Positions 2,430-21,892 of a DNA stretch of 64,000 bases are shown in pieces. The position numbers and the translations under genes were made by a program. The notes beneath the pieces are model-generated. The model searched no databases. It was given only the letters and a program-made list of their open reading frames with translations, and was not told where the DNA came from. How positions within the stretch are numbered: the stretch's first letter is position 1; each line of letters begins with the position of its first letter. Where the stretch lies: positions 248,001-312,000 of the forward strand of contig CACJXK010000001.1 of assembly GCA_902597335.1 (NCBI GenBank), in the 5' to 3' direction. This DNA comes from an uncultured Pelagibacteraceae bacterium. GTDB lineage: Bacteria > Pseudomonadota > Alphaproteobacteria > Pelagibacterales > Pelagibacteraceae.

Positions 2430-4100
2430 ATTAGTCAACCATTTCTTTACATTTTTTTTCAAAAAAGGAGAAATAGTATTATAAACTTCAAAGTGATACT
2501 TAAATAGGTAATCTTTTTCCTTTTTATTGAGCATTTTAAAGTTAACCAAATCGATATCGATTGGTGCCAAAGTAAGATTCTCAAAAAATAATTTTGATTT
2601 AAATTTTTTAATAAAAACTAAATTTTCAATTCTTATACCAAAATCGTTTTTCTTATAAAATCCAGGTTCATTACTTAAAATCATCCCCTCTTTTAAATCT
2701 ACATAGTTATTTCTTGATATTCCTTGTGGACCTTCATGAACATTAAGAAATGCCCCAACTCCATGACCAGTTCCATGCCGATAATCAAGGCCAACAGAGT
2801 TGAGACTTTTTCTTGCAATTTTATCTATATTATGTCCATTTTTCTCTCTTTTAATATCTGATAATACAACAGCAATATGGCCTTTTAATACTCTTGTAAA
2901 TATATCTTTAATTTTATTCGAAACTTTTGAAAAACATACTGTTCTAGTTACATCTGTTGTCCCCCATTTATATTGTCCTCCAGAGTCAATAAGCAACAAA
3001 TCATTTTTTTTTAATTTTCTATCTGTATATCTATTGGACCTGTAATGAATTATTGCTCCATTTGGTCCTGATCCAGCAATAGTATCAAAGCTAGGATATA
3101 AATAATTTTTATTTTCTTTTCTAAAATTCTCTAATTTTTTCTCAATTTTTTTTTCTGTTAGATTTTTAATTTTATGGTTTTTTATCCAATACAGGAATTT
3201 TGTTAAAGCAACACCATCCTCAATGTGTGCATCAATCATATTTTTAATTTCGGTTTTATTTTTGACAGATTTTAAAATATAAATTGGGTCTTCTCTTTCA
3301 ATTATTTTAAAATTAAAATTTATTAAGCTTTCCTCGAAAACTGAACATGTTTTACTATCAATACAAAAATTTCCTTGTTTAAGATTAATCAAAGACTTCA
3401 AAATACTATTTTCTTCAAAAAAATATATTTTTAATTTTTTTAAAGTTTTTTTGATTTTGTTTATTTTATATTTATTAGCAAAAAAAAATATTTTTTTTTC
3501 TTTAGAAATTATTATTTTACAATTAGCTATGGGAGAATTTGGCAAATCTTTTCCTCTAATATTAAGAAGCCAACAAATATTTTCGCCAGCGCTTATGTAA
3601 GAATAATCAATTTTTTTTTTTATCATCAATTTAACTAAACGATTTATTTTTTTGCTAACACTTGCACCAGCAATACCTGCATCTAAGCTAAAAAATAAAT
3701 TATTTTTTTTATTTATTTTCTTATTTTTAAATTTATAATTTAAAGGAATTAGGAAATATTCATCTCCAAAATATTTATTTAAAGTTTCTTTCGTGAAAAG
3801 ACTTGGATCAAAACCAACTTTAATTTTTTTTTTTAATAAATTTTTAGGCCAAACATAAGGAATTTCACAAATTTTAAAGTTTTTACCAGACTCCTTTTCA
3901 GCTTGAATAGTGTATCTTCCATCAACAAATAAATACTTTTTATTCTTTAAAAAAATCGCAAAACCTGCTGATCCAGAAAATTTTGAAATTGATCTTAGAT
4001 TATTTATTTTAGAATATTCTGTAAAATAATGATCGTTTTTTGGTAGAATATACCCATCTAAGTTATTTGAGTTGATAATTTTGCTTATTTCAATGCTCAT
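2418..4100 (-). CDS. pepP: Xaa-Pro aminopeptidase (aminopeptidase P, M24B family)
   Basis: Cytosolic metallopeptidase releasing N-terminal residues before proline. An N-terminal creatinase-like half is followed by the M24 pita-bread domain. The metal ligands are visible in order: Asp in LLIDSGGQY, Asp in TTDVTRT, His in GTGHGVG, Glu in SNEPGFY and Glu in GIRIENL. The long form has an extra middle domain, as in eukaryote-type aminopeptidase P, and 560 aa fits. The frame is open to an earlier ATG at 4127, but the ATG at 4098-4100 overlaps the uvrD stop as ATGA, the usual coupled arrangement here, so that start is chosen. It is cotranscribed downstream of uvrD. Confidence 0.93.
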   Translation of the reverse strand: MSIEISKIINSNNLDGYILPKNDHYFTEYSKINNLRSISKFSGSAGFAIFLKNKKYLFVDGRYTIQAEKESGKNFKICEIPYVWPKNLLKKKIKVGFDPSLFTKETLNKYFGDEYFLIPLNYKFKNKKINKKNNLFFSLDAGIAGASVSKKINRLVKLMIKKKIDYSYISAGENICWLLNIRGKDLPNSPIANCKIIISKEKKIFFFANKYKINKIKKTLKKLKIYFFEENSILKSLINLKQGNFCIDSKTCSVFEESLINFNFKIIEREDPIYILKSVKNKTEIKNMIDAHIEDGVALTKFLYWIKNHKIKNLTEKKIEKKLENFRKENKNYLYPSFDTIAGSGPNGAIIHYRSNRYTDRKLKKNDLLLIDSGGQYKWGTTDVTRTVCFSKVSNKIKDIFTRVLKGHIAVVLSDIKREKNGHNIDKIARKSLNSVGLDYRHGTGHGVGAFLNVHEGPQGISRNNYVDLKEGMILSNEPGFYKKNDFGIRIENLVFIKKFKSKLFFENLTLAPIDIDLVNFKMLNKKEKDYLFKYHFEVYNTISPFLKKNVKKWLTNLIK

Positions 4101-14874: not shown

Positions 14875-15887
14875 TGATTAAAACAGATGTTGTTATAATT
14901 GGTGCAGGCCCAACAGGATTATTTTGTGCGCATCAATTAGGAATCATTGGTTTGAAATGTGAAATAGTTGATAACTTAGATAAAATAGGTGGTCAATGTA
15001 TAGAACTCTATCCAGATAAACCCATTTATGATATTCCAGCAGTGCCCGAGTGTACTGGAGAAGAGCTTACAAATAATTTACTAGAACAAATAAAACCATT
15101 TAACTTCAATTTTCATTTGAATGACAGAGTTCAAGAATTAAAACAAGTAAATGAAAATTGGCTAGTTAAAACAACCAAAGGAAAAGAGTTTACAGCTCCA
15201 AATGTAGTAATTGCAGGCGGAGTAGGTTCTTTTGAACCTAGAAAATTTCCTACAAAAAGTGCAGAAAAATTTGATGGTACCTCTGTTCTGTATTCAATTA
15301 AGGACAAAACTATCTTTAAAAATAAATCAGTAGCAATTTTTGGAGGTGGAGATAGTGCACTTGATTGGGCAATTGAACTATCTAATACTTCAAATGTTTC
15401 ACTGATACATAGAAGAGATGAATTTAGAGGAGCACCTGCAAGCGTTCAAAAAATAAAAGAACTTAGTGAAAAAAATAAAATTAATTTATTTACAAAGTAC
15501 TCAATTAAAGATGTGAAAGGCAATGGCACTTTAGAGGAAGTCGAGATTAAAAGCGAAGAAGGTGAAAGCAAAACTCTAAAGGCAGATTATGTTTTAGGTT
15601 TTTTTGGTTTAATAATGCAACTTGGGCCAATTGCGGAATGGGGGCTTAATTTAGATAAAAAAACAATACCAGTTAATACAGAAAATTTTGAAACTAATAA
15701 AAAGGGTATTTTTGCTATCGGCGATATTTGTAATTATCCAGGAAAACTAAAATTAATATTATCCGGTTTTCATGAGGGAGCTTTAGCCGCTAGAGGATGT
15801 TTTAAATATGCAAGACCTAATGAGAAATATAGGTTTGAATTTACTACTGCATCTAACACTATAAAAGACAGATTAGGTGTTAAATAA
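14874..15887 (+). CDS. Ferredoxin-NADP+ reductase, thioredoxin-reductase-like (FNR2 type)
   Basis: FAD enzyme passing electrons between NADPH and ferredoxin. FAD-binding GAGPTG is at residues 10-15 and the NADP-binding GGGDSALDWA near residue 158. The redox CxxC of true thioredoxin reductases is absent after the NADP motif, and GGQCIELYPDKPIYDIP is characteristic of the bacterial YumC-like ferredoxin reductases. The 337-aa length fits. Start and stop each share one base with the adjacent genes, so ferredoxin-reductase-GST form one coupled operon. Confidence 0.9.
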
Positions 15888-16513
15888 TGATCGAGCTATT
15901 CTCAGCCGATACTCCTAATGGTTGGAAAATTAGCATAATGTTAGAAGAGATAAGCTTTGACTACAAAATTACCAAAGTAAACTTAAACAAAGGAGAACAA
16001 CATAAAGCTGAATTCAAAAAAATTAGTCCTTTCAATAAGATACCAGTGATCACTGATCACGAAAATAAAAAGTCAATATTCGAGTCAGGAGCAATATTGA
16101 TGTATTTGGGTGAAAAAAGTAAAATGTTTTATCCAGAAAATAATAGATTAGAGATAAATCAGTGGTTAATGGCCCAAATGGGTTTGATTGGTCCAATGAT
16201 AGGTCAACATCATCAGTTTCATTATTATCACCAAGGAAAAAGTGAATGGGGAGAGGAAAGATATTTTAAAATAACTAGAAAGTTATATGAAGATTTAGAA
16301 GCAAGACTATCATCAAGTGATTACTTAGCAGGTAAAGACTATTCTATTGCTGATATTGCGACATGGTCATGGATAGCACGTCACAAAAGACATGATATTG
16401 GATTAGAAAACTTTAAGGGGTTATCTAGATGGTTTGTTGAAATCGCAAAGCGTCCAGCAGTTATCAAAGGATTTAAAGTATTAAATAAAGATGCTGAAAT
16501 AGACTATCCTTAA
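15887..16513 (+). CDS. Glutathione S-transferase family protein
   Basis: The N-terminal thioredoxin-like fold includes LFSADTPNGWKISIMLEE and the conserved cis-Pro region NKIPVITDHEN with ESGAILMYL; a C-terminal all-helical domain follows (208 aa). The pattern is close to the YfcG/YghU (Nu class) bacterial GSTs, which reduce disulfides with glutathione; the substrate is not predictable. It is the last gene of the ferredoxin operon, with its stop overlapping the convergent dksA stop as TTAA. Confidence 0.85.
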   Translation: MIELFSADTPNGWKISIMLEEISFDYKITKVNLNKGEQHKAEFKKISPFNKIPVITDHENKKSIFESGAILMYLGEKSKMFYPENNRLEINQWLMAQMGLIGPMIGQHHQFHYYHQGKSEWGEERYFKITRKLYEDLEARLSSSDYLAGKDYSIADIATWSWIARHKRHDIGLENFKGLSRWFVEIAKRPAVIKGFKVLNKDAEIDYP

Positions 16514-16926
16514 ATATCAGCGTAAACTTTTTCTTCTTTTTCGTGTTTCTCTTGAGCTGATATACATAAAGTTGCAACTGGCCTTGCCATTAATCTTTTA
16601 AGACCAATTGGTTCCGCAGTTTCCTCACAAAAACCATATGTTCCGTCTTGAATTTTTTTTAAAGCTCCATCAATTTTTGAAATTAACTTTATTTGTCTGT
16701 TGATTGCTCTCATTTCAACATTTTTTTCTGTGTATGAACTTGCTTGATCAACAATGTCTGCTGAAGCACTGTTGTCATCCATTGAAGCATTAAATATTGC
16801 TTCATTATTTGTTCTCTTTAGATCTTTTTTCCAGTCCATTAATTTTTGTTTAAAATATGCAAGATGTTTTGCACACATGTATTTTTCAGTTTCTTTTGGA
16901 ATATATTTTTTAGAGATCTTTACCAT
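16510..16926 (-). CDS. dksA: DksA-family RNA polymerase secondary-channel regulator
   Basis: Coiled-coil regulator acting with ppGpp. The long helical hairpin includes MDDNSASADIVDQAS, which carries the acidic tip; the C-terminal zinc-finger region GTYGFCEETAEPIGLKRLMARPVATLC has two cysteines where the E. coli protein has four, a degenerate form common in alphaproteobacteria. A longer in-frame start at 16962 exists, but a good promoter (TTGACA, 16 nt, TATATT) overlaps it, so transcription should begin downstream and the ATG at 16926 (MVKISKKYIPKE, 138 aa) is chosen. Confidence 0.88.
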   Translation of the reverse strand: MVKISKKYIPKETEKYMCAKHLAYFKQKLMDWKKDLKRTNNEAIFNASMDDNSASADIVDQASSYTEKNVEMRAINRQIKLISKIDGALKKIQDGTYGFCEETAEPIGLKRLMARPVATLCISAQEKHEKEEKVYADI

Positions 16927-16948
16927 ACCCAATTTTATAAGTTCGGTG

Positions 16949-16976
16949 AATATATTCATCATTTATTAAGTGTCAA
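16949..16976 (-). promoter_or_regulatory. Sigma-70-type promoter for dksA
   Basis: On the minus strand TTGACA (16971-16976) and TATATT (16949-16954) are 16 nt apart, a near-consensus pair. The expected start of transcription falls near 16942, a short leader before the ATG at 16926. Confidence 0.7.
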
Positions 16977-17005: not shown

Positions 17006-18301
17006 ATGGCCATTTATAAAAAAAATATAAACAATTTATTTTATATTTTTATCACATCACACGTATTGATCTGGACATTGATTCCAACTTTTACAAATCA
17101 TAATTTGCCATTAGATACAATCGAAGCCTTAGCGTGGGGAAGCAACTTAGATTGGGGATTTAATAAACATCCTCCAGTAAGTGCTTTTTTGCCGGAAACA
17201 ATTTATTTTATTTTTGGACCGCAAGATTGGGCGTATTATTTATTAAGTCAAATTTGTATTTTAGTTTCATTCTTTGTTATTTTTAAGTTAGCAGAGGATT
17301 TTTTTGAAAATAAGATTCACTGTTTTCTTTCCGTCTTATTATTAGAGGGTATTTATTTCTATAACTTCACAACACCTGAGTTTAATGTAAACGTATGTCT
17401 TATTCCTTTTTGGTCACTTTCCATCTTTTATTTATGGAAAGGAATTAAAAGTAATAAAATATTAGATTGGATATTCCTTGGTCTTTTTGCTGGTCTTGGG
17501 TTTCTTTCTAAATATTTATTTGTCTATTTAGGTTTAGCAATAGCTGTTCTTTTAATTTATTTAATCATTAACAAAAAAACAAATTTTAAGTGTTTGGTAT
17601 CTTTAATTCCATTCTTTTTAATTTTATCTCCTCATGTTATTTGGCTATCTGAGAATGATTATGTAACTATAACTTATGGACTAATGAGAACTGGATCAGA
17701 TGAAGTTAATATTTTTAATCATTTAATGCACCCATTTATATTTTTACTAAAACAAATTGGAATATTGATACCATTCTTACTTATGATTTTAGTATTAATA
17801 AAAAAATTTAAAATAAATATTAATTTGAATGACGATAAATTATTATTTTTGTTATCAATAAACTTAATCCCTCTTTTATTTATTTTTTTAACATCTTTTA
17901 CTATGGGTGTTAAAATAAGAACTATGTGGATGACACCGTTTTATATAAGTTTTGGTTTGCTATTTGTTTATATTTTCAAATCTGAGATTAATTTTGAAAA
18001 AATGAAAGCTTTTACTTCTCTCTTTTTAGTCTTATTTTTAATTTCCCCAATTTTATATGCATATGTTTCTATTTCAAAAACTGACAAAAGAACTGATTTT
18101 AATGGAAAAAATTTAGCTAAACAGGCTAAAAATTTTTATGAAACAGAAGCAATTGATCTTGGAAAAATGGAATATGTTAAGGGTAATGAGTGGATTGCAG
18201 GTAATATATCTTATCATCTTCCAGAAAGACCAAAGTGGATTTATAGTTCAAAGGATATTTACATGTGCAATAAAGATATGGAGTGTATAAAATATAAATG
18301 A
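17006..18301 (+). CDS. GT39-family integral-membrane glycosyltransferase
   Basis: Polytopic membrane enzyme (431 aa, about ten hydrophobic segments) of the PMT/ArnT-like fold, which takes a sugar from a polyprenyl-phosphate carrier on the periplasmic side. The first-loop signature ALAWGSNLDWGFNKHPPVSA matches the family's DWGYFDHPP pattern, preceded by the acidic LPLDTIEA. A TTG in frame at 16988 is possible, but the ATG at 17006 is preferred. It overlaps the next small gene by ATGA. Acceptor and sugar are unknown; the context (GT2, secreted lyases) points to envelope or extracellular glycan. First gene of the accessory operon. Confidence 0.83.
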   Translation: MAIYKKNINNLFYIFITSHVLIWTLIPTFTNHNLPLDTIEALAWGSNLDWGFNKHPPVSAFLPETIYFIFGPQDWAYYLLSQICILVSFFVIFKLAEDFFENKIHCFLSVLLLEGIYFYNFTTPEFNVNVCLIPFWSLSIFYLWKGIKSNKILDWIFLGLFAGLGFLSKYLFVYLGLAIAVLLIYLIINKKTNFKCLVSLIPFFLILSPHVIWLSENDYVTITYGLMRTGSDEVNIFNHLMHPFIFLLKQIGILIPFLLMILVLIKKFKININLNDDKLLFLLSINLIPLLFIFLTSFTMGVKIRTMWMTPFYISFGLLFVYIFKSEINFEKMKAFTSLFLVLFLISPILYAYVSISKTDKRTDFNGKNLAKQAKNFYETEAIDLGKMEYVKGNEWIAGNISYHLPERPKWIYSSKDIYMCNKDMECIKYK

Positions 18302-18423
18302 AATTTCAATTGAACCAAAAAAATAAAAAACTTTTATTCATTATTGGAATAATTGCTTTAATAGAACTTTCAGGTTATGGTTTTTTTGCCTCTTTATTTA
18401 GGTTAATAGGTTCTGTGAGTTAA
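18298..18423 (+). CDS. 41-aa single-helix membrane microprotein between two glycosyltransferases
   Basis: Starts within the stop of the GT39 gene (ATGA at 18298-18301) and ends sharing a base with the GT2 start (TAATG at 18421-18425), so it is translationally linked on both sides. The product has a basic N-terminus (KFQLNQKNKK) and one hydrophobic helix (LLFIIGIIALIELSGYGFFA). No family is recognised. The exact fit between two stop/start overlaps argues that it is a real gene. It might assist the two glycosyltransferases, or be a remnant of a larger protein such as a GtrA-like flippase; that is inference. Confidence 0.6.
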   Translation: MKFQLNQKNKKLLFIIGIIALIELSGYGFFASLFRLIGSVS

Positions 18424-19292
18424 TGAATATTATAATATTAATTCCAGTCTTTAATGACTTTAGATCTACATCAAAATTAATTGAAGAAGTTGATAGCAGT
18501 ATTTCTAATTTGAATGCTTCATTTTCGGTAATAATAATTAATGATGCATCAACAGAAGAAAAAAATTTAGAAAATACAAATTTAACAAATATAAAATCTC
18601 TAAAATTAATAAATATGAGAAATAATAGGGGCCATGCAAGATGCATTGCTGCTGGACTAAAACATATTTCAGAAAATGAAGATTTTGATTATGTGATACC
18701 TATGGATGGTGATGGAGAAGATAGACCTGAAGAGATCAAAAACTTTGTAGAAAAGATTAAGGATAATCCTAATAAAAGTATTGTTGGAGAAAGAGTAAAA
18801 AGATCAGAAGGTTTAATTTTTAAAATCTGTTATTTTTTGCACAAAATAATTACTTTTACATTTACAGGAAAATTTATAAAATTTGGAAATTTCACTTGTC
18901 TTACAAAGGAAACTGTTAAGAAATTAATTGAAGAGAAAGCAACTTGGAGCAGTTTTTCAGGATCTTTGGCAAAAACTGAAAGTAATTTAATTAATTCTCC
19001 ATCAATAAGAGGCTCAAGATATTTTGGTCCTTCCAAGATGAGTTTTTTAAACTTAATAAAACATTCCTTAGCAATTATTGCAGTATTTAAATCTTCAGTG
19101 ATTTTTAGATCAATTGCATTTTATGCGATATATTTAATAATAATTGCTGATTATATAAGTGTAATTACAGCAATACCTTTGGCTTTAATCATTATTTTTG
19201 GTCTAGTTATTCTAAAAATCTCAGGACGAGAAAATATGACAGAATTTAATAATTGTTTAACAAATATTTCAGATATTGACATTTTAAAATAG
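18423..19292 (+). CDS. GT2-family glycosyltransferase (polyprenyl-phosphate sugar synthase-like)
   Basis: The N-terminal GT-A domain begins IIILIPVFNDFRSTSKLIEE; the nucleotide/metal motif appears in VIPMDGDGEDRPEE. Two C-terminal hydrophobic stretches (about residues 220-275) suggest membrane attachment, as in DPM1/GtrB-type enzymes that load a sugar onto undecaprenyl phosphate. That role would feed the GT39 enzyme encoded two genes upstream. The 289-aa length fits. It precedes the DUF1800 gene by 18 nt. Donor sugar is unknown. Confidence 0.82.
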   Translation: MNIIILIPVFNDFRSTSKLIEEVDSSISNLNASFSVIIINDASTEEKNLENTNLTNIKSLKLINMRNNRGHARCIAAGLKHISENEDFDYVIPMDGDGEDRPEEIKNFVEKIKDNPNKSIVGERVKRSEGLIFKICYFLHKIITFTFTGKFIKFGNFTCLTKETVKKLIEEKATWSSFSGSLAKTESNLINSPSIRGSRYFGPSKMSFLNLIKHSLAIIAVFKSSVIFRSIAFYAIYLIIIADYISVITAIPLALIIIFGLVILKISGRENMTEFNNCLTNISDIDILK

Positions 19293-19310: not shown

Positions 19311-20738
19311 ATGAAAAATTTTTATCGTAAAGTAGCATTTGGACTCGGACCAGACGATAAAATACCCTCTGACCCATTAATATGGGCAACAAATCAATTG
19401 AACGATATTCCTGAATTTTCTTGGAAGGGGAAAATTTTACCAGAGAAAGAACTTAGAAATTATTATCGAGATTACGTTTATGGAGATAGAAAAGTTCTAA
19501 GAAAAAAATTTAAAAATGACAAAGAAGGCTACAAAAGGGAAAAAAATAAGTTAAGGCATGCAACTGGTCAAAAATTTTGGTGGAACCTTGAACTTTGTAT
19601 AAGGTATTCAGAAGCATTAAAAAGTGAAACACCAGTTTTAGCAAAACTTTGGTACTTCTGGGGAAATCATTTCGCAATCAGTGAAAAAGATTTTTTGGCA
19701 CAGTATACAACAGGTGCTTACCAAAGAGAGATTATTAGAGCTAACATGAATCAAAACTTTGAAAAAATGGCCCAAGAGGCAACCATCGGTTGGTCAATGA
19801 TACATCATCTAGATAATGACCAGAACGTAGGACCTAAGAGTCAAGAAGCAAGGTGGGCAAGAGAGAAAGGAAAGACAAAAGGTGTAAATGAAAATCATGC
19901 AAGAGAACTTCTAGAACTTCACACTGTTTCCCCAGAATGTGGATATACACAAGAAGATATAATTCAAATGGCATATATAATGAGTGGATGGAGACCTAAG
20001 TGGGGAAAGAAAAGATTAGAGACAGGAGATGTTCATTTTAATCCTGATGCTCATGAGCCTGGTACTAAAATAGTTTTAGGTAAAAAATATAAAAGAGGTA
20101 GAAAAAGTTTATCAGTTGCAATTACAGATCTTGTTAATCATCCTTCCTGTAGAAAATTTATTGCTATGAAACTCTGTAGATATTTAATCACAGATAACCC
20201 AACTGAAGAAATGATGGAACCGATTATAAAAGCTTGGGAAAAATCAGATGGTTTTTTACCAGAGGTTCACAAAGCCGCTGTAGAAGTTGCTTTTAATTAT
20301 TCTGATAAATACAATAAATTCCAGAATCCAGAAAACTGGTTATTGCAAATGAGCAAAATGGCTGATGTTGATTTAATCCCTTCTCCTTCATTTATGGATC
20401 TTTATCAACTTGGAAATAAACCGATTAAGGATCAAAGAGCTTTAGAAAGGTTGATGGATGAGCTTGGACAACATCCTTATTTAGCAAAACAACCGAATGG
20501 GTGGTCAGATATTTCAGAGGATTGGATGTCACCAGAGTTACTAATTAGAAGGCTGGTTTATGCAAGAGAGGCTTATTACAAAAAGTCAGGCAAGTCACAG
20601 ACAAATGAATTTTATGAAGAAATGATTGAAAAAAATTATGATAATCCAAGGGAAATTTTACAAATTATAAATCAGCATAAAGAGCTTGTTCATAAACATG
20701 TAATATTATTTAATTTACCGGAGACGCTTAAATCATGA
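19311..20738 (+). CDS. DUF1800 family protein
   Basis: Recognised by the N-terminal FYRKVAFGLGPDD (family pattern RRAxFGP), the central YQREIIRANMNQNFEKMAQEA region and the highly conserved NENHARELLELHTV with GYTQEDIIQMAYIMSGW. 475 aa, normal length. No signal peptide is seen. The biochemical function is unknown. DUF1800 genes are usually found immediately upstream of a DUF1501 gene, as here (4-nt ATGA overlap), so the two probably act together; DUF1501 is exported by Tat, and DUF1800 might be co-exported with it or act in its maturation (inference). Confidence 0.88.
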   Translation: MKNFYRKVAFGLGPDDKIPSDPLIWATNQLNDIPEFSWKGKILPEKELRNYYRDYVYGDRKVLRKKFKNDKEGYKREKNKLRHATGQKFWWNLELCIRYSEALKSETPVLAKLWYFWGNHFAISEKDFLAQYTTGAYQREIIRANMNQNFEKMAQEATIGWSMIHHLDNDQNVGPKSQEARWAREKGKTKGVNENHARELLELHTVSPECGYTQEDIIQMAYIMSGWRPKWGKKRLETGDVHFNPDAHEPGTKIVLGKKYKRGRKSLSVAITDLVNHPSCRKFIAMKLCRYLITDNPTEEMMEPIIKAWEKSDGFLPEVHKAAVEVAFNYSDKYNKFQNPENWLLQMSKMADVDLIPSPSFMDLYQLGNKPIKDQRALERLMDELGQHPYLAKQPNGWSDISEDWMSPELLIRRLVYAREAYYKKSGKSQTNEFYEEMIEKNYDNPREILQIINQHKELVHKHVILFNLPETLKS

Positions 20739-21892
20739 AGATATCAAGAAGAAATTTTTTAAAAGGTTCAGCTACTACATTATTTTTAGCTGGCTTTAAT
20801 TTTCCAGTTTTAGCAAATACGGACAAGAAAAAAAATCTCGTTGTTATAATGTTAAGAGGTGGAATGGATGGTTTGTGTGCTGTTCCAATAATTGGAGATA
20901 AGAATTTTGAGAAAAGAAGAAAAGATTTGATTTTAGATGAAACACTAAAGTTAAATTCTGATTTCGCACTTCATCCTAAACTAAAAAATTTTCATAATTT
21001 GTGGCAAAATAATCTGGGAGCAATTGTTCATGCAACAAATATTCCATATACTAAAAGATCTCATTTTGATGGGCAAAACTTAATGGAGACTGGAGGTCAT
21101 ATCCCTTACTCCATAAAAACTGGTTGGTTAGGAAGAGGAATGAAATTAGCAGAATTGAAAGGTGATGGTCTTGCATTGGCATTACCAATGCCTCTACTTC
21201 TTAGAGGAATTCCTAGTAATGATAATTTTTATCCTTCAAAAAAAAGACTTCCAAGAACAGAACTTTTGCAACTTTTGAAATCAGTTTATGCAGATAAATC
21301 CGAACATGACTTAGCAAATATGATGGAGATAATTGCTAACAGATCTATGATGAATAATGGAGGCAACTCTATGTCTAGAAAGAATTCATCATTAGCCCAT
21401 AAGGCAGGTTTAGAACTTAAAAAAATCAATGGTCCAAGGGTTGCAGTTTTTGAAGTTGATGGATTTGATACACATGCCGCACAAGGCGGTGTGAATGGTT
21501 CACATTCAGATAGTCTGATTGAAATGGATTCAATTTTTAAAAGTTTAGAGAAAGGTCTAGGATCAGAGATAGAAAATACTCTAGTTTTAACTTTAACAGA
21601 ATTTGGAAGAACAATTAAACAAAATGGAGGTCGTGGAACAGAGCATGGTTATGGATCTGCAATTTTTATGGCAGGTGGTCTTTTAAAAAAATCTCAAGTT
21701 TATACAGACTGGCCAGGACTTAAGCGAAAGGAATTATTTGAAGGAAGAGATTTAAATTCAACAATTGATGCTAGATCTGTATACGCTTCAGCAATGTCTA
21801 CCGTTTTTGATATAGACTTTAAAAGAATTCAAAAAGAAGTTTTCTGGGGAGATAAACTCCAAGATTTATCTGACAAATTATTTAAAATTTAA
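20735..21892 (+). CDS. DUF1501 family protein with Tat signal (alkaline-phosphatase-superfamily fold)
   Basis: The N-terminus MKISRRNFLKGSATTLFLAG is a clear twin-arginine signal, so the folded protein is exported. The body has DUF1501 landmarks: VVIMLRGGMDGLCAVP near the start, VDGFDTHAAQG, TLTEFGRTIKQNGGRGTEHG, where Asp/His/Thr/Glu residues could bind metal as in sulfatases and phosphatases. 385 aa. It shares one base with the next gene (TAATG). Substrate unknown; with four secreted polysaccharide-lyase-like neighbours, a desulfating or dephosphorylating step on an acidic glycan is a reasonable guess. Confidence 0.88.
   Translation: MKISRRNFLKGSATTLFLAGFNFPVLANTDKKKNLVVIMLRGGMDGLCAVPIIGDKNFEKRRKDLILDETLKLNSDFALHPKLKNFHNLWQNNLGAIVHATNIPYTKRSHFDGQNLMETGGHIPYSIKTGWLGRGMKLAELKGDGLALALPMPLLLRGIPSNDNFYPSKKRLPRTELLQLLKSVYADKSEHDLANMMEIIANRSMMNNGGNSMSRKNSSLAHKAGLELKKINGPRVAVFEVDGFDTHAAQGGVNGSHSDSLIEMDSIFKSLEKGLGSEIENTLVLTLTEFGRTIKQNGGRGTEHGYGSAIFMAGGLLKKSQVYTDWPGLKRKELFEGRDLNSTIDARSVYASAMSTVFDIDFKRIQKEVFWGDKLQDLSDKLFKI

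Follow-up and report, generated by a model that had tools for sequence, protein, structure and literature searches.

The window, a stretch of 64,000 nucleotides from an uncultured member of the Pelagibacteraceae (SAR11), was taken from a genome of 1.27 Mb that is 87% complete. SAR11 bacteria are among the most abundant bacteria of the ocean, and their genomes are heavily streamlined. The locus considered here holds a small gene, termed micro2, that is overlapped on both sides by glycosyltransferase genes:

15887-16513, plus strand: GST-family gene that converges with dksA; the dksA/GST junction is a site of micro2 in relatives
16510-16962, minus strand: DksA-family gene; in many relatives, micro2 lies downstream of dksA with a second microprotein between them
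17006-18301, plus strand: PMT_2/GT39-type membrane glycosyltransferase, 431 aa from the ATG (PF13231, E 1.5e-31)
18298-18301, plus strand: ATGA overlap of the micro2 start with the GT39 stop, read from the sequence and kept in the clade
18298-18423, plus strand: microprotein gene micro2, an ORF of 41 aa (evidence from sequence conservation, dN/dS, profile and structural model)
18421-18425, plus strand: TAATG overlap of the micro2 stop with the GT2 start, read from the sequence and kept as TAATG or TGATG in nearly all of the clade
18423-19292, plus strand: GT2-type glycosyltransferase, 289 aa (Glycos_transf_2, PF00535, E 6.7e-14)

The initial annotation had placed an open reading frame at 18298-18423 with an ATGA overlap upstream and a TAATG overlap downstream, and the sequence agrees with it exactly: the ATG of micro2 (18298-18300) is interlocked with the TGA of GT39 (18299-18301), and its TAA (18421-18423) with the ATG of GT2 (18423-18425). 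The product, MKFQLNQKNKKLLFIIGIIALIELSGYGFFASLFRLIGSVS, combines a lysine-rich N terminus, a hydrophobic helix, a conserved IE-x-SG-x-G hinge and a C-terminal helix. GT39 has an alternative TTG start 18 nt upstream that would extend it to 437 aa. GT2 is weakly ArnC-like (NF007986, far under the cut-off of that family), and C-terminal hydrophobic segments of its own are apparent by eye in its sequence. Farther to the left of the glycosyltransferase genes, the window encodes DksA, GST, a pyridine nucleotide-disulphide oxidoreductase (which we read from its sequence as ferredoxin reductase-like), a 2Fe-2S ferredoxin and a bacteriorhodopsin-family protein. Straight after GT2 lies a DUF1800/DUF1501 gene pair (19311-21892), a variable insert that is present in L195, L196, L201, L147 and L158 and unseen after GT2 in L193, L194 and L197-L200. 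A search of the window's genome to E 1 found no second copy of micro2.

Relatives of the locus were collected by the GT2 protein, and the best 80 of 524 confirmed contigs (L061-L140) were compared. Every one of these 80 loci has the micro2 ORF beside GT2. The single frameshifted copy is that of L100, where a poly-T run (around 3956-3965) is one T short and the frame shifts near the C terminus; this is either a sequencing error or a real loss. All 53 loci of the window's clade (L061-L113) retain the ATGA overlap, and 51 of them have a TAATG or TGATG overlap, the exceptions being L113 (ATGA) and the frameshifted L100, so that the overlaps are indeed beyond chance, as the initial annotation had supposed. 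The sister clade (L114-L140) keeps the ORF in 27 of 27 loci and has, in place of both overlaps, short spacers of 2 nt upstream (all 26 measurable cases) and 4 nt downstream; these spacings were read from the sequence, and apparent values of -17 and -22 stem from in-frame upstream ATGs.

The amino acid sequence is under stronger constraint than its surroundings. By the Nei-Gojobori method with Jukes-Cantor distances, the 48 usable micro2 sequences of the window's clade (45 of them distinct; 53 loci in all) give a dN/dS of 0.056, and the 27 of the sister clade (19 distinct) one of 0.039. In the window's clade, the stretches of 41 codons next to the ORF reach 0.136 in GT39 and 0.227 in GT2. Since the dN/dS of micro2 is lower than that of the flanking enzyme ends, selection acts on the peptide itself and not merely on the DNA or the overlap. 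The variable columns at codon positions 1, 2 and 3 number 17, 5 and 36 in the window's clade and 8, 0 and 21 in the sister clade. For the copies linked to dksA, pN/pS is about 0.24-0.28, in comparisons that are saturated. The micro2 ORF is thus a genuine gene: beside the same flanking genes, its protein is conserved in both clades and its frame is disrupted in one copy of 80. A chance ORF might be suspected in such AT-rich sequence: by composition only, 2.8% of 20,000 random draws leave a stretch of 39 codons free of stops. The low dN/dS and the matches of a micro2 profile across the family, which reveal a protein conserved across genera, refute this explanation, and the probability that we leave to it is practically nil.

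We identified micro2 with a profile built from alignment A1 in 80 of the 101 genomes sampled from the window's own genus, g1 (counted by hand), and in many genomes of genus g4, and by single-sequence search also in genera g3, g7, g8, g9 and g14. At E 0.01 or better, profile A1 matches 188 of the 297 genomes of the order. A class-wide profile search matched three of 289 genomes, two of them from the window's genus, including the window's own; the outlier, G545 (E 0.004, inside a frame of 142 aa), is attributed to chance. So far, micro2 has been found only in the Pelagibacteraceae. Convincing profile matches are absent from the single-contig genomes G017, G026, G063, G078, G005, G009, G022 and G040, and no convincing copy was found in any tested genome of g5, g6 or g12 or in the tested complete genomes of g9. 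Weak first-pass matches (G001, G017, G078, G152, G200 and several in g2) gave no full-length profile match where tested, and the four g1 genomes among the five named were scored as lacking micro2. Ten g1 genomes with a GT2 match (G224 by a weak match only) are without micro2, which is therefore dispensable.

The libraries searched contain no obvious counterpart. None of 20 members of the micro2 family matches a Pfam or NCBIfam family above its cut-off. The best sub-threshold NCBIfam candidate, TIGR04527, reached E 0.0026 in one member; with the window's protein it scored 12.5 bits, where its cut-off is 125, and it was dismissed as chance. PADLOC gave no match, and PHROG gave matches at chance level only. 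Searches of the PDB by sequence or fold returned nothing beyond chance (four xanthan lyase matches at E 0.28), and no paper on micro2 was found by title or abstract opening in the open-licence literature searched.

The genes that adjoin micro2 differ widely between lineages. We examined 81 genomic contexts, comprising 80 fetched relatives and the window. The position between GT39 and GT2 accounts for 17 of them, and 37 have micro2 beside dksA and/or GST. The remainder place it on the nadA-like or ygfZ-like side (10), on a transporter-like or thioesterase-like side (4), or beside rpoH-like (3), glutathione-peroxidase-like (3), carB-like (1) or other genes (6). The names DksA, GST, GT39, GT2 and folate-binding (ygfZ-like) derive from library matches of the window's homologues, while nadA-like, transporter-like, rpoH-like, glutathione-peroxidase-like, carB-like and the remaining neighbour names were read from sequence. 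In the nadA-like group, a tRNA-Leu intervenes in L146, and tRNA-like sequence was seen by eye in L244, L245 and L258. The commonest geometry (50 of 81 contexts) is an upstream gene on the same strand and a convergent downstream gene, and upstream neighbours of the glutathione-peroxidase-like, rpoH-like and CBS-domain-like kinds are also overlapped by 4 or 1 nt. The copies of genus g4 share the signature IELSG[YH]GILASLSRL in differing surroundings, a pattern that suggests vertical inheritance and relocation instead of transfer. The GT39/GT2 position spans several early g1 branches in a tree of the GT39, GT2, reductase and GST proteins (79 rows), which was built by a quick method and includes linked enzymes, so that it serves as a guide only. 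The GT39/GT2 position may be ancestral in g1, in which case the dksA position would be derived.

The initial annotation had suggested that the microprotein could stabilise or couple the two glycosyltransferases, and as a dedicated role this is not supported by the comparison. To begin with, micro2 lies beside other genes in 64 of the 81 contexts. We further examined 49 GT39/GT2 loci, of which 8 are without one of the enzymes, 4 have micro2 between them, and 37 (in 33 genomes, four of them represented twice) have readable junctions without micro2. At these junctions, GT39 and GT2 are directly adjacent in 36 of 37 loci (32 of 33 genomes), at spacings of -4 to 17 nt and with an ATGA overlap in 16 genomes; the exception is L053, with a gap of about 1 kb. 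The pair is also intact in nine of the ten g1 genomes that have a GT2 match and are without micro2, the tenth (G224) having merely a weak, paralogue-like GT2 match. GT39 and GT2 are thus usually coupled to each other without micro2, and linking the two enzymes is at best one possible mechanism. The same observations count against the related proposal that micro2 is a dedicated accessory subunit of the pair, similar to DPM2/DPM3, with the relocated copies acting in trans; so do the apparent hydrophobic segments in the C terminus of GT2. This proposal draws on the early-branching g1 lineages with micro2 at GT39/GT2, a position that may be ancestral in the genus, on the overlaps kept in 53 and 51 of 53 loci, and on the GT2 match in 248 of 297 genomes of the family. 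On balance, we consider it rather unlikely.

Tight overlaps at both ends would also be expected if translation of the ORF alone mattered, as a relay between GT39 and GT2, and the peptide did not. Amino acid conservation that exceeds that of the flanking enzyme ends, and that persists away from the glycosyltransferase genes, argues against such a relay; the dN/dS values and the relocated copies largely refute it, leaving it very improbable. The variety of neighbours instead indicates that micro2 probably has a job of its own rather than that of linking GT39 and GT2. It is best read as a free-standing gene that borrows its expression from whichever gene it adjoins.

The members of the family are 31-42 aa long and share the core motif IExSGxGI..[ST]L.[RK]L. 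All 70 distinct core sequences (from the 81 contexts) have the residues I22, E23, S25, G26 and G28; position 32 admits only S or T and position 35 only R or K, and lysine predominates at positions 10-11. An AlphaFold2 model of micro2 contains a helix at residues 7-24, a break at SGYG and a second helix at 29-40 (mean pLDDT 80.9, pTM 0.42). With 41 aa, one long modelled helix (7-24) and its column-wise hydropathy, micro2 has the size and the helix of the small single-pass membrane proteins (less than about 50 aa, one hydrophobic helix). A conserved helical face was considered and set aside: its score was weak (P 0.04), and the break predicted at residues 25-28 speaks against it. From the sequence and the model, micro2 would consist of one membrane helix with a cytoplasmic N terminus, a hinge and a short interface helix; the low pTM calls for caution with respect to this topology and to the membrane location itself. 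The claim of a membrane microprotein stands in the form of a real, conserved and probably single-pass protein whose gene has translation-coupling overlaps and for which the family libraries searched gave no match above their cut-offs.

A small, hydrophobic, patchily lost and wandering protein could also be a membrane toxin or a phage-exclusion peptide of the type I toxin or holin-like kind, and one of the 20 members did match a holin PHROG, though no better than by chance (E 0.15). The very low dN/dS speaks against this explanation, as do the placement of micro2 as a coupled cistron between two enzyme genes in the window's clade and the separation of micro2 from the second microprotein in some lineages. 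PADLOC gave no match, Pfam, PHROG and NCBIfam remained at chance level, and no phage or viral relative was found in our searches, so that we reject a phage origin and consider a toxin quite improbable.

The second microprotein (micro1, KKYIxYYxFFW) is encoded by an ORF of 37-45 aa directly upstream of micro2 in 36 of the 81 contexts, mostly with a 4-nt overlap. Where it follows dksA, its start lies within the end of dksA in several cases. All 17 sequences of alignment A3 have K22, Y27, Y28 and W32, and the model is a single helix at residues 14-41 (mean pLDDT 79.4). The micro1 profile was widened stepwise (A2, A3, A4), and the A4 matches in g2, g3 and g8 have drifted too far to be trusted; the copies of the window's clade and of g4 were found only with the widened profiles, in which drift is possible. 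The sister clade has micro1 alone ahead of an arginase-family gene, with a 4-nt overlap. In the window's genome, a weaker relative of micro1 at G000:C5:76429-76533 (locus L415, frame from 6394) matches A3 at E 6.6e-7. In the window's clade this relative lies between genes for a dehydrogenase-like protein of 740 aa and an arginase-family protein, the interval that also holds micro1 in the sister clade, and its copies are without the tryptophan that is invariant in A3. Other g1 lineages carry a divergent form ahead of an aldehyde-dehydrogenase-like gene. The arginase-family gene of the window's genome (G000:C5:77966-78910, L361) contains one in-frame TAG, either a recent decay or an assembly error, and the other near-identical copies listed are open.

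Among the 101 g1 genomes, 77 have both microproteins, three have micro2 only (G069, G210, G222), seven micro1 only and 14 neither; a micro1 match in G182 (E 0.008, with an internal stop) was scored as absent. Removal of 13 genomes without a GT2 match leaves 88, with 75, 3, 2 and 8, respectively. Counting against a link, G212 and G220 carry micro1 without micro2, and G222 the reverse. Fisher's test on these 88 genomes gives p of about 1e-7, a value that ignores relatedness. A tree-based test on the 64 rows with both traits is borderline: it yields six independent pairs, on average 5.3 in the same direction, 0 in the opposite direction and 0.7 without difference, for a median p of 0.0625 (range 0.03-0.125). 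Absence of both microproteins corresponds to six changes on the 79-row tree. Much of the co-presence is due to the physical linkage of the two genes in many genomes. Where micro2 sits at GT39/GT2 and micro1 is not adjacent, 27 of 29 genomes have micro1 when its weaker forms are counted, and this setting offers no unlinked absence for comparison. A partnership of micro1 and micro2 is therefore plausible and not proven.

Further small ORFs were noticed in other genera. In g4, a micro1-like ORF of about 44 aa lies between the rhodopsin gene and ferredoxin in L424, L429, L430, L436, L437 and L446, ending 3 nt ahead of ferredoxin in L424, L429, L430 and L446. Genera g2, g3 and g8 have ORFs for lysine-rich single helices (PFTVRGYxxYY) close to genes of the thiolase-like or dehydrogenase-complex-like type (L451, L452, L454, L457, L152, L155); their relationship to micro1 is uncertain. 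Because the dksA/GST and ygfZ-like positions of micro2 flank the rhodopsin locus, and the g4 ORF adjoins rhodopsin, proteorhodopsin was considered as a partner; this idea was rejected, as rhodopsin-bearing genomes without either microprotein exist (L193, L194).

As the best explanation, which we hold with moderate confidence, micro2 is a genuine single-pass inner-membrane microprotein that acts in trans in the role of a small subunit, accessory or regulatory, often probably together with micro1. Its lysine-rich N terminus would be cytoplasmic, and its one hydrophobic helix would end at the invariant glutamate, followed by the Ser-Gly-x-Gly break and a short second helix whose conserved Arg/Lys would lie at the outer membrane face. 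In this form, micro2 may pack onto a larger membrane protein in the manner of CydX or AcrZ, and would probably often work with micro1 as a single-helix partner that overlaps it upstream in many relatives. The GT39/GT2 overlaps would then mainly supply micro2 with ribosomes through translational coupling. A bolder reading, which we offer tentatively as a minority possibility, is that the IExSGxG and KKYIxYYxFFW proteins form a two-part minimal inner-membrane device special to SAR11, whose genes migrate together or apart, come to rest at the margins of unrelated genes, which they often overlap by 4 nt, and depend on these genes for their translation.

Streamlined SAR11 genomes thus retain a gene for 31-42 aa under strict selection while relocating it. 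A tight operon overlap is here a poor guide to function, as the genes to which micro2 is coupled in sister lineages are unrelated. If the pairing with micro1 is true, the two make up a two-helix membrane system that can be tested and that is probably overlooked by annotation pipelines. In any case, micro2 deserves annotation.

Three known systems offer comparisons. DPM1 is a GT2-type enzyme. DPM2 and DPM3 are described as small membrane subunits of dolichol-phosphate mannose synthase, a glycosyltransferase that makes lipid-linked mannose (PMC5526996). They have 80-90 aa and two helices, in contrast to the 41 aa and the one long and one short modelled helix of micro2, and they serve a catalytic subunit without helices, whereas GT2 here seems to have its own. 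Nor does micro2 keep such constant company, since the GT39-GT2 pair is intact in nine g1 genomes without it and adjacent in many that carry it elsewhere.

CydX is a subunit of 37 aa of cytochrome bd oxidase that, like CydY and CydZ, has a single helix and fewer than 50 aa and is easily missed by annotation (PMC4325964). Micro2 and CydX share a single hydrophobic helix within fewer than 50 aa, the nature of an extra small cistron, and a few highly conserved residues. The two differ in that CydX is mostly encoded with cydAB, whereas micro2 changes its neighbours, and no sequence relation appeared in Pfam or NCBIfam for the 20 micro2 members. Among those neighbours of micro2 that were read, cydAB did not come to notice. 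AcrZ, in turn, is encoded away from its target. This small transmembrane protein acts on the AcrB pump, itself a large membrane protein (PMC7267776). No sequence relation between AcrZ and micro2 was found; the likeness that we propose would lie in being small, transmembrane and acting on a larger membrane protein.
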